Shown here in pieces: positions 9,905 through 29,582 of a stretch of DNA of 56,427 bases. Below the pieces are notes generated by a model. That model was not told the DNA's origin. It worked only from the letters and a program-made list of their open reading frames with translations, and did not search any database. How positions within the stretch are numbered: the first letter of the stretch is position 1; every line of letters begins with the position of its first letter. The stretch spans positions 1-56,427 of the forward strand of contig NZEC01000015.1 in NCBI GenBank assembly GCA_002688925.1, written 5' to 3'. The position numbers and the translations under genes are program-made. The stretch is from an archaeon. Lineage in GTDB: Archaea > Nanobdellota > Nanobdellia > Woesearchaeales > GW2011-AR4.

Positions 9905-10873
9905 TTACAATCCGCTAAAATCCATCTTCCTGCCTTTGAAGTCTTTCCTAACTAATAGGGCTACTCTGCTTTCCTTTTTTTCATCTATTACTTTGTAAGA
10001 TGATTTTTTTTCGATTTTCTTTGCAAATTCCATTATCTCATGATGGGTGGGCATGTTCTCAATCATTAAACGTTCTCTACTATGGCCTACCCAGACATAG
10101 CCTTTGCATTCTACAAACATTGGCTTGTATTTGTCTATCAGATTTGCATATAGTTCCGGCTTTATCATATTGATTCCTTTTACTAAAGTAAGCCTTATTG
10201 TAGTTCTCTTAAATTTAGGCAGCATTGATAGGCTTTTATGCAGCTTTTCCCATGAATCCCCAGCTATTGGATTTGCGGTTTTTTGATAGATTTCTTTGTT
10301 GGGACCGTAAACACTGATATATAACTGGGTTGGCTGGTGCTTGATGAGTTTTTTAACCATACCTGGAATTGTCCCGTTTGTGACTAAAAAAGATGTGAGG
10401 CCTTTCTTTTTTAGATAATCAATCATTTCAGGCAGCTTGGGATACATTGTAGGTTCCCCAGTCAGGCTTATTGCAAAATGCAAGGGCTTTTCCATCTCCT
10501 TCAGCCTTTTTTCAACTGCGTTTTTGTTGCCTTTGAATCCCTGCAGATATTCTATGTGGGCTTTTATGGACTCGTCTACAATAAGCTTAGGATCATCTAC
10601 TTGACCTTGCCACTTTGGCCATGTATAATCAATATTGCGCCAGCAGAAGACACATTTATGGTCGCAATAAAATGTTGGAGACATCTGCACGCATCTCCAG
10701 CTCTCTATTCCATAAAATGTGTTTTTGTAGCAGACATCTTTTCCTGTCAGGGATTTTTTGCAATACTCGCATATCTTGACAGCAGAATGGTTTCCTACTA
10801 AACGATAGCCTTCCTTGTATCTTTTTTTATTCTTAAGGTCTTTCTCTTCTTTGATTTGTTTTGAAGCTTTCAT
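9905..10873 (-). CDS. taw1: tRNA 4-demethylwyosine synthase, radical SAM
   Basis: Taw1/TYW1 condenses pyruvate carbons with N1-methylguanosine 37 of tRNA-Phe to make the tricyclic wyosine core. The radical SAM motif C-x3-C-x2-C is in TFYCDHKCVFCWRN (around residue 70), and further cysteines near the N-terminus (ICEYCKKS, GKDVCYK, WRCVQ) fit the second iron-sulfur cluster of this family. GEPTMYP and the downstream VKGINM region also match. The length of 322 residues is normal. Its promoter region faces palindromic repeat copy 1. Confidence 0.92.
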   Translation of the reverse strand: MKASKQIKEEKDLKNKKRYKEGYRLVGNHSAVKICEYCKKSLTGKDVCYKNTFYGIESWRCVQMSPTFYCDHKCVFCWRNIDYTWPKWQGQVDDPKLIVDESIKAHIEYLQGFKGNKNAVEKRLKEMEKPLHFAISLTGEPTMYPKLPEMIDYLKKKGLTSFLVTNGTIPGMVKKLIKHQPTQLYISVYGPNKEIYQKTANPIAGDSWEKLHKSLSMLPKFKRTTIRLTLVKGINMIKPELYANLIDKYKPMFVECKGYVWVGHSRERLMIENMPTHHEIMEFAKKIEKKSSYKVIDEKKESRVALLVRKDFKGRKMDFSGL

Positions 10874-10912
10874 TTTGTAGTGTTTTGTATTTTAGGTTTT
10901 GTTGAAAAAATC

Positions 10913-11035
10913 CAGTTCGTGCTTATGCGGGGCCTTAGCACTCTTCTCAACTTCGCATTGCTTTGCAATGCTCAGGTCGTATAACACATCCTGCGGAGCT
11001 ATATCCATTGGCAATTTACGCATAAGCACAAACTG
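10913..11035. repeat. palindromic intergenic element, copy 1 (MITE-like or structured RNA)
   Basis: A 17-base inverted repeat with one mismatch bounds the element (10913-10929 and 11019-11035, core GTGCTTATGCG). Inside are a 7-bp hairpin GCATTGC-TTT-GCAATGC and segments that match, in reverse orientation, the element at 26656-26777. The block from 10919 to 10957 is identical in both copies. It sits between divergent taw1 and a hypothetical gene. It has no reading frame of note. It is either a small non-autonomous transposable element or a structured RNA or regulatory element. Confidence 0.8.
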
Positions 11036-11093
11036 TTGCAATAGTCGATTTTAATATAACTTTTTGATAATAACAATACTTGGCTAATATCCA

Positions 11094-25554: not shown

Positions 25555-26034
25555 ATGGCTGATGTTAATTCTTACTTAGTTGGCTGGAGCATAAGGTTTC
25601 TGGAGAATAAGGATCACATTAAAAAAGAGATAGTAAAGGTAAAGAAAAATTCCGAAGGGTTTGATTTTGCAGTGCATTACAAAGACAAGGTAAAATATTT
25701 TATTGTGGGAACAGTTTTGAAAAGTGATTTATTTGGCAAGATAAAAAATGAATTGAACATTAGCCTGATTACTTTAAACAATATATCAAATATTAAGTTT
25801 GTTATAGATAACTGGAAAAAATTAAGTGATTTTAAGCTTTTGAGCATATACTTCATAAATCCATTCTCTAACTCGGATAAGGTCTGGGTAATATGCCCTT
25901 ACATACACAACATGGTATGCGATAATATAGCTTTAGAACTTGGGCTGAAATCCATGGGTGAGATGGTAGTGGCTATAGATGTGGATGGATTAAACAAAAA
26001 AATTAAAATGCTAAAAGAAGAATCTGACCAATAA
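25555..26034 (+). CDS. hypothetical protein downstream of pcn
   Basis: The protein has 159 residues with no signal peptide or membrane segment. It has an alpha/beta pattern: NSYLVGWSIRFLENKDHIKKEI, then FDFAVHYKDKVKYFIVGTVL, a helix-strand pair with NLKSVWVICPYIHNM-like strand (KVWVICPYIHNMVCDNIALE) and a C-terminal VVAIDVDGLNKKI. The layout recalls a restriction-endonuclease-like or Rossmann-type fold but I cannot name a family. Its own promoter (TTTTATAAACG) is present. The end overlaps the convergent kinase-family gene by about 32 bases. Confidence 0.72.
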   Translation: MADVNSYLVGWSIRFLENKDHIKKEIVKVKKNSEGFDFAVHYKDKVKYFIVGTVLKSDLFGKIKNELNISLITLNNISNIKFVIDNWKKLSDFKLLSIYFINPFSNSDKVWVICPYIHNMVCDNIALELGLKSMGEMVVAIDVDGLNKKIKMLKEESDQ

Positions 26035-26596
26035 ACCCACTGGCTATTGGCACTACTAAGTTATCATCCAATTCGTCAACTAGAGTTTCTGTAATTGTTG
26101 CGACAAAAGCCATGATTATTGGGATGTATATGTTGATTGAAAAGAACAGGCTTATTATTAATGCCACTATAAAATTTGTTATTAATTCCGCTGCAAATCC
26201 GACAACTGTTTTGTTCTTGAAAAGTATTGTGTTGCCGTACTTTTTTCCTGCAATTGCGGCTGACATGTCTCCAAAAGTTGTCATTAATAAGGCTGCAAGG
26301 GCAATAGCGGTGTCAAAAACCGCAAGGGCCACTATTGCAGATAAAAGGAAAAATATTACTCCATAAACTCGATACTGCTCTTTCGGCCTTATGAACTGGT
26401 GGAAAAACGGGAGCTTGAAATTGAGCTCTAATCTGAAGTATTCTAAAATCAGGAATATTAATAATAAAACCACTAAAAAAAGAAGGGCTGCCTGCTGTCC
26501 TGCCTGGTTTTTTATTGCAAAAAAAAGCGCAAGAACTATTAAGATTGTGATGTGTATTGTTTTCCTGCTTAGTTCATTAACAAATTCCCAACTCAT
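26003..26596 (-). CDS. second dolichol-kinase-family membrane protein
   Basis: The protein has 197 residues and six or seven membrane segments, with the SEC59-like motifs ELSRKTIHI (N-terminal), TTFGDMSAAIAGKKYGNT (around residue 106), NKTVVGFAAE and DELDDNLVVPIASG near the C-terminus. It is a distant paralogue of 5908-6504. It probably phosphorylates a polyprenol, dolichol or geranylgeraniol with CTP. Its promoter region contains palindromic repeat copy 2. Confidence 0.8.
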   Translation of the reverse strand: MSWEFVNELSRKTIHITILIVLALFFAIKNQAGQQAALLFLVVLLLIFLILEYFRLELNFKLPFFHQFIRPKEQYRVYGVIFFLLSAIVALAVFDTAIALAALLMTTFGDMSAAIAGKKYGNTILFKNKTVVGFAAELITNFIVALIISLFFSINIYIPIIMAFVATITETLVDELDDNLVVPIASGFIGQILLLAF

Positions 26597-26655
26597 ATGC
26601 TATTATTAATAAAACACCATTTATATAGTTTTCTTAAAGTAAGGAGTTAGTATAG

Positions 26656-26777
26656 AAGTCAGTGCTTATGTGTAAATTGCCAATGGATTAATTCCCAAAA
26701 GGTTGTGATAAACGACCTGAGCATACGCAGTATGCGAAGTTGAGAAGAGTGCTAAGGCCCCGCATAAGCACTGACTT
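26656..26777. repeat. palindromic intergenic element, copy 2, inverted relative to copy 1
   Basis: The ends AAGTCAGTGCTTATG (26656-26670) and GCATAAGCACTGACTT (26762-26777) are inverted repeats. Read on the minus strand it aligns with copy 1 at 10913-11035, including an identical 39-base block (26733-26771 on this strand) and a second block around CCATTGGCAATTTAC. The internal hairpin is GCATAC-GCA-GTATGC, a different sequence from copy 1 with the same pairing. It lies between divergent genes, 25 bases before a TATA box of the following small gene. Confidence 0.8.
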
Positions 26778-26799
26778 ATACAATAAACCCCAAAAACCA

Positions 26800-26812
26800 A
26801 AATATATTTAAA
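26800..26812 (+). promoter_or_regulatory. TATA box of the small membrane protein gene
   Basis: AAATATATTTAAA is centred about 28 bases before the ATG at 26835, so the message is probably leaderless. Confidence 0.55.
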
Positions 26813-29495: not shown

Positions 29496-29582
29496 AATTT
29501 CCGATATGTCAGAAACCAACAGACTAATTGATTCGGTTTCTGAGCATGCTCGAAAATCGGAGATTTTCGACATATTTAAATA
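29496..29582 (+). repeat. 87-base promoter-proximal hairpin repeat, copy B
   Basis: This copy is collinear with 1661-1747 over 87 bases. The 9-bp inverted repeat (TCAGAAACC with GGTTTCTGA), GCATGC and the 8-bp hairpin CGAAAATC-GGA-GATTTTCG are kept. The three-base loop is GGA where copy A has TCC, its exact reverse complement. It ends ATATTTAAATA, a TATA box 25 bases before the ATG at 29607. Confidence 0.85.

Follow-up and report, generated by a model that had tools for sequence, protein, structure and literature searches.

Background

Among the described systems closest to the element studied here, single-strand Y1 transposases mobilise REPs, which are not known to leave 9-bp duplications, ERIC elements are about 120–130 bp long, and the yeast elements Ty1 and Ty3 aim their insertion at the upstream edge of promoters. 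Insertion sequences (IS) of the IS903 group, which belongs to the IS5 family, produce 9-bp duplications and carry inverted repeats of 15–27 bp (PMC3281130). In archaea, the Sulfolobus miniature inverted-repeat elements (MITEs) SM1–SM4 occur in 25–44 copies per genome (PMC10969869).

The element described here was noticed as a pair of palindromes in a 56,427-nt stretch of archaeal DNA (contig NZEC01000015.1, hereafter the window) from a Woesearchaeota-type genome of 0.86 Mb (the host genome, G000). The element family is real and well supported, and its members are non-autonomous elements (MITEs). The frame that makes it mobile belongs to a familiar type; what is unusual is the conserved folded passenger inside that frame and the spacing of the insertions to promoters.

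The two copies in the window

The two copies reported in the initial annotation, at 10913-11035 and 26656-26777 in opposite orientation, are both present, with the core of copy 1 at 10917-11031 on the minus strand and that of copy 2 at 26660-26773 on the plus strand. The longest block identical in both is 40 bases (ATGCGAAGTTGAGAAGAGTGCTAAGGCCCCGCATAAGCAC), rather than the 39 first given, and the second conserved block, on the ATTGGCAATTTACGCATAAGCAC side, is a 32-nt arm that is 91% complementary. The changes described for the terminal stem (CAGTT/AACTG to AAGTC/GACTT) and for the inner hairpin (GCATTGC/GCAATGC to GCATAC/GTATGC) are correct. The reported extent of about 120 bases describes the core but is incomplete for the element, whose eroded terminal repeats reach about 20 nt farther on each side.

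Folded singly, each copy outscores every one of 200 dinucleotide shuffles, whichever strand is taken (z −4.3 to −6.6). The folded core of copy 1 comprises a long terminal stem (P1), P2, a small hairpin (P3), a variable hairpin (P4) and invariant joining segments; it scores 128.5 bits with covariance model R1 (G000:C15:10917-11031, minus), copy 1 being part of the training set. Copy 2 has the same four helices with an altered form of the small hairpin.

In copy 2, an eroded terminal repeat flanks the core at either end: AAGGAGTTAGTATAGAAGT at 26641-26659 (5′; plus strand, 8/15 matches) and ACTTATACAATAAACCCC at 26774-26795 (3′; plus strand, 8/15), the latter pairing with the 5′ arm beside P1. 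In copy 1, the 3′-side repeat lies at 10893-10916 (minus strand; plus-strand letters AGGTTTTGTTGAAAAAATCCAGTT) and matches 9/15 positions in the repeat scan. The 5′-side arm at 11032-11050 (minus strand; plus-strand letters ACTGTTGCAATAGTC) reaches a best match of 7/15, close to the random value of 6.5, and we infer from the sequence that this arm is probably homologous to the terminal repeat. The 9-bp duplications of both window copies have decayed, none being left. Because no duplication is left and the ends are eroded, the window copies are judged to be old; they are old members of a Woesearchaeota miniature inverted-repeat family. The gene adjoining copy 1 (9905-10873, minus strand) encodes a wyosine-type radical SAM enzyme, and the gene adjoining copy 2 (26003-26596, minus strand) matches the cytidylyltransferase family.

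Copy number and distribution

A DNA search finds about 30 near-complete copies plus fragments in the host genome, and an iterated profile built on the fetched loci gives a consistent copy set. The further copies that the initial annotation had asked for thus exist, in the host genome as well as in relatives: DNA matches occur in six other genomes among 59 relatives, and one of these six, Candidatus Woesearchaeota NC_groundwater_553 (G010, JACPMQ01), holds at least 40 copies. The covariance-model search that it had proposed extends the range to five further families of the order, whose genomes hold diverged copies; in a sample of 371 phylum genomes, the model again gave hits in this order alone. 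The core pattern was present in none of the viral contigs searched, and the plasmids searched gave no match to the element.

The element had been said to resemble no nameable RNA family, and the Rfam models agree: at gathering cut-offs the window has no match, and in 13 loci with copies, searched at E up to 5, no credible match overlaps the element. Readings as a group I intron or as a 5S-like, SRP-like or K-turn RNA, which had been considered on sequence resemblance, were rejected for lack of Rfam support; in addition, relatives do not preserve CGAC/GTTG, the putative K-turn stem.

The folded core

The core is about 115 nt long and consists of four covarying helices and invariant joining segments. 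In a first set of 51 sequences, 97.4% of cells are paired and two-sided changes occur in 15 of 24 pairs, with a covariation score of 0.230, compared with 0.104 in shuffles and at most 0.059 with slid partners. In a second set of 16 sequences, all from other families, 94.7% of cells are paired, two-sided changes occur in 20 of 24 pairs, and the covariation score is 0.469, compared with 0.146 in shuffles. This second set is the stronger evidence, because the structure was derived from the first; the 16 sequences were not used in model building, though they were aligned by that model. The claim that the stems keep pairing through sequence change therefore holds well beyond the two window copies, covariation being far above chance in both sets. 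In other families, the terminal stem may differ wholly (e.g., GCGCTGGCATC/GATGCCAGCGC), and CGACCTGAG and GAAGTTGAGAGG are mostly kept despite this change. Covarying helices with conserved loops are the mark of a structured RNA, and they would look the same in a single-stranded DNA.

Terminal repeats, target-site duplications and the related insertion sequence

The extended copies start with GAGGTTGGTGCGAAA and end with its complement; they are small and non-coding, measure about 144–271 bp from end to end and so have the form of MITEs. Many better-kept copies show 9-bp direct repeats directly outside the terminal repeats, and at 11 loci these target-site duplications are exact or have one mismatch. 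An autonomous relative with the same ends is found in Nanoarchaeota archaeon B4T1B8 (G013, JADFLA01), where contigs break at an IS whose termini read GAGGTTGGTGCATAA and GAGGTTGGTGCGAAAATAAC; contig ends could be matched into 8 pairs by a common 9-bp duplication. The IS and the MITEs share ends of about 11–15 bp, a figure that refers to the shared part only, and a duplication of 9 bp. An open frame begins at one end of the IS, and the 161 residues known of this partial transposase give a weak match to the IS5-family model NF033579 (E 1.1e-6, 28 bits versus a cut-off of 140) and no Pfam match above cut-off. Among 288 genomes, all of them drafts, just one more has a distantly similar transposase, and one of the G013 type was not found in the host genome or in G010, both incomplete drafts. 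Repeats like such IS are often lost in assembly. An IS1 origin, suggested by the 9-bp duplication, was rejected on the absence of PF03400 (DDE_Tnp_IS1) in 35 relatives, and integron attC sites were likewise rejected, the copies being dispersed and bearing 9-bp duplications.

The matching IS ends and the exact 9-bp duplications on the MITEs point to a DDE-type IS as the most likely source of mobility. The initial annotation had offered a structured RNA or a mobile element recognised by its hairpin; the elements are indeed mobile and their stems covary, but the mobility most likely does not come from hairpin recognition. The same exact duplications, lying directly outside IS-matching terminal repeats, largely refute the view that the copies are a family of host non-coding RNA genes of non-mobile origin, with flanks that are palindromic by chance. 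Such a gene family would fit the covariation and the selection on the core, whereas the patchy distribution of the elements, with bursts in single genomes, also speaks against it, and we regard it as highly improbable.

Conservation of the core independent of the termini

The initial annotation had further held that a related transposase with matching terminal repeats and target-site duplications would make the element an ordinary MITE. The related IS, the matching terminal repeats and the 9-bp duplications have all been found; however, "ordinary MITE" is an inadequate label for the family, since conservation of the core does not depend on the termini. In the host genome, mismatches per 39 joining positions amount to 1.14 in 7 copies with intact termini and 1.12 in 17 copies with eroded termini. 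Both window copies have eroded termini, yet their joining segments are as conserved as elsewhere. Distant relatives carry the same core between other ends, e.g., GGGTTTGTTGAATAATT or GGACACTGT, or without clear ends, and in G010 most copies have an extra outer repeat, GTAACTGCTAACA.

If the family were nevertheless made of ordinary MITEs, the core would be a leftover between the ends, and its covariation would reflect functionless upkeep of a palindrome by template switching. The inverted repeats, the duplications and the related IS agree with this reading, as does the stem beside P1, which in the host genome is re-paired with many different sequences, as template-switch correction would give. 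However, the joining segments, which do not pair, have an identity of 0.96–0.99, compared with 0.55–0.64 in other unpaired stretches, and the same segments return in other families, where the stems and termini around them differ. Since palindrome upkeep does not keep unpaired loops, the invariant joining segments count against the ordinary MITE, which we consider improbable.

The termini are not tied to one core either. In relatives belonging to nine genera, a second core without sequence relation to the first is found between the ends GGTTGGTGCGAAA (L104:1502-1659, L105, L106, L107 and L182-L209). This second core has a conserved GACATTCCCCGTAAGGGACGTCCCCCTTGTC and compensatory stem changes, its stems being taken from the alignment and consensus fold without the pair-counting control used for the first core; it lies only partly inside the same termini, and one host-genome copy (C4:17210, L188) has other ends. 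At L220:1391-1612, a single pair of termini, flanked by an exact 9-bp duplication, holds two head-to-head cores. At L108, L109, L103 and the G018 copies L025 and L030, small palindromes (such as GTGAATTGTGAGCGAGTTCGC) are inserted at hairpin tips or stem ends, which would fit a preference for hairpins as targets. The window also contains a different repeat of about 87 nt, at 1661-1747 and 29496-29582 (93% identical); it has two internal inverted repeats (AGAAACC/GGTTTCT and TCGAAAATC/GATTTTCGA), ends in a TATA-like box (TTTAAATA) that immediately precedes a gene start, and is possibly another promoter-associated mobile element.

Insertion beside promoters

A TATA-like box lies 12–18 nt outside one edge in each of the 19 examined insertions that a duplication confirms (8 IS, 11 MITE). 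At the IS insertions, the 9-bp duplication is followed by about 6 nt, often ending in AACC, and then by TTTWWA or a near variant (8/8); seven of these boxes were caught by a regular expression, and the eighth, weaker one (TTTTTTAA / CCTTTTTTAACC) was scored by eye. The 11 MITE insertions, which come from several genomes, all have the box, compared with 11% of shuffled flanks (MITE set only). The binomial value for the MITE box spacing, 3e-11, is optimistic, as the motif set was picked after viewing the IS flanks and the insertions were taken as independent. When all copies in the host genome are counted, 13 of 35 have a box on one side versus 1.6 expected. Next to copy 2, the candidate TATA-like box of the small downstream gene (TATATTTAAA, 26803-26812, plus strand) lies just outside the element and was assigned by sequence and spacing class; that of the leftward gene (26619-26626, minus strand), assigned by sequence, lies about 14 nt outside.

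Start codons cluster about 60–75 nt from the core, and the gene context bears out the earlier remark that divergent genes flank both window copies. The promoter spacing accounts for both observations. The fixed spacing to a TATA-like box suggests promoter-guided transposition in archaea, of which a non-exhaustive search of the open literature gave no earlier description.

In the host genome, the left gene points leftward in 25 of the 33 copies for which both neighbours are called, and the skew in G010 is opposite. A fixed-strand regulatory RNA of the neighbouring genes was rejected on this disagreement between genomes.

Proposed model

We think it probable that the family is a promoter-targeting MITE with a selected folded core, a judgement that concerns the element and stands apart from the question of an RNA step. 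A transposase supplied in trans would have moved the elements, and it probably reads or follows the promoter region, so that one edge of the insertion is set 12–18 nt from the TATA-like box, upstream of the promoter. The core would be a passenger module acting in the form of a folded single strand. In the host genome, the copies have apparently stopped moving and the core would still be under selection; an unseen transposase might still accept the eroded termini, and the argument for selection would then be weaker. A fuller and more tentative proposal, to which we give somewhat less than an even chance, is that the core is an order-wide module of structured nucleic acid, carried in MITEs with unrelated termini and selected after its carriers die, in combination with a promoter-spaced transposition that probably follows TBP/TFB.

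RNA or single-stranded DNA

The likeliest role of the core, at about an even chance, is that of a structured RNA copied from the core strand and bound by protein. When P3 is left aside, the helices contain 13 GU versus 5 AC (p ~0.1), which leans weakly toward one strand; with P3 included the counts are 19 versus 15, and the long arms show no strand bias (56 to 46 and 25 to 34). Situated upstream of the promoters, the elements fall outside the neighbouring transcripts, and their orientation is inconsistent, which counts against their being part of those transcripts.

The same position, together with the unfixed gene orientation, would suit a core that acts as folded single-stranded DNA or a cruciform in the negatively supercoiled DNA ahead of a promoter, where, e.g., a protein of the host or of the element could recognise it. 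This is a sub-case of the promoter-targeting MITE with a selected core and is opposed to its RNA step only. GNA-type loops form very stable DNA mini-hairpins, and in P4, GNA with a closing C-G or T-A pair makes up 34 of 43 triloops, the hairpin being reduced to two base pairs, GC-GNA-GC, in 9 sequences. However, DNA energy parameters gave the shortest hairpins no extra stability. A DNA role comes next after the RNA and appears to us rather doubtful.

Comparison with known systems

The closest parallel is with MITEs of the IS5 family (IS903 group), which are likewise short and non-coding, with terminal inverted repeats, 9-bp duplications and an IS in a relative (PMC3281130). In the present family, by contrast, the core is conserved across the order inside different termini, and the insertions stand at a fixed spacing to TATA-like boxes. 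ERIC of enterobacteria is similar as an intergenic palindromic repeat with a conserved interior and tens to hundreds of copies (PMC10969869). Here, however, a transposase-bearing IS and duplications are known and four helices covary, and the likeness to ERIC drawn here is one of description. Sulfolobus SM1–SM4 are similar as archaeal MITEs mobilised by IS elements, and to our knowledge no covarying multi-helix core has been reported in them. REPINs and RAYT-mobilised REPs are also palindromic mobile intergenic repeats (PMC3116915). The analogy with Ty1 and Ty3 is one of outcome only, since those are retrotransposons that use Pol III factors.

If the fuller proposal above is true, the core would represent a structured RNA (or functional single-stranded DNA) of a new class, and its dispersal upstream of promoters would rewire regulation in reduced archaeal genomes. 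As the fold is kept while the sequence and the termini change, the role of the core for its carrier or its host becomes a testable question. Non-autonomous elements are usually held to carry interchangeable filler, whereas in this family the filler is the most conserved part.
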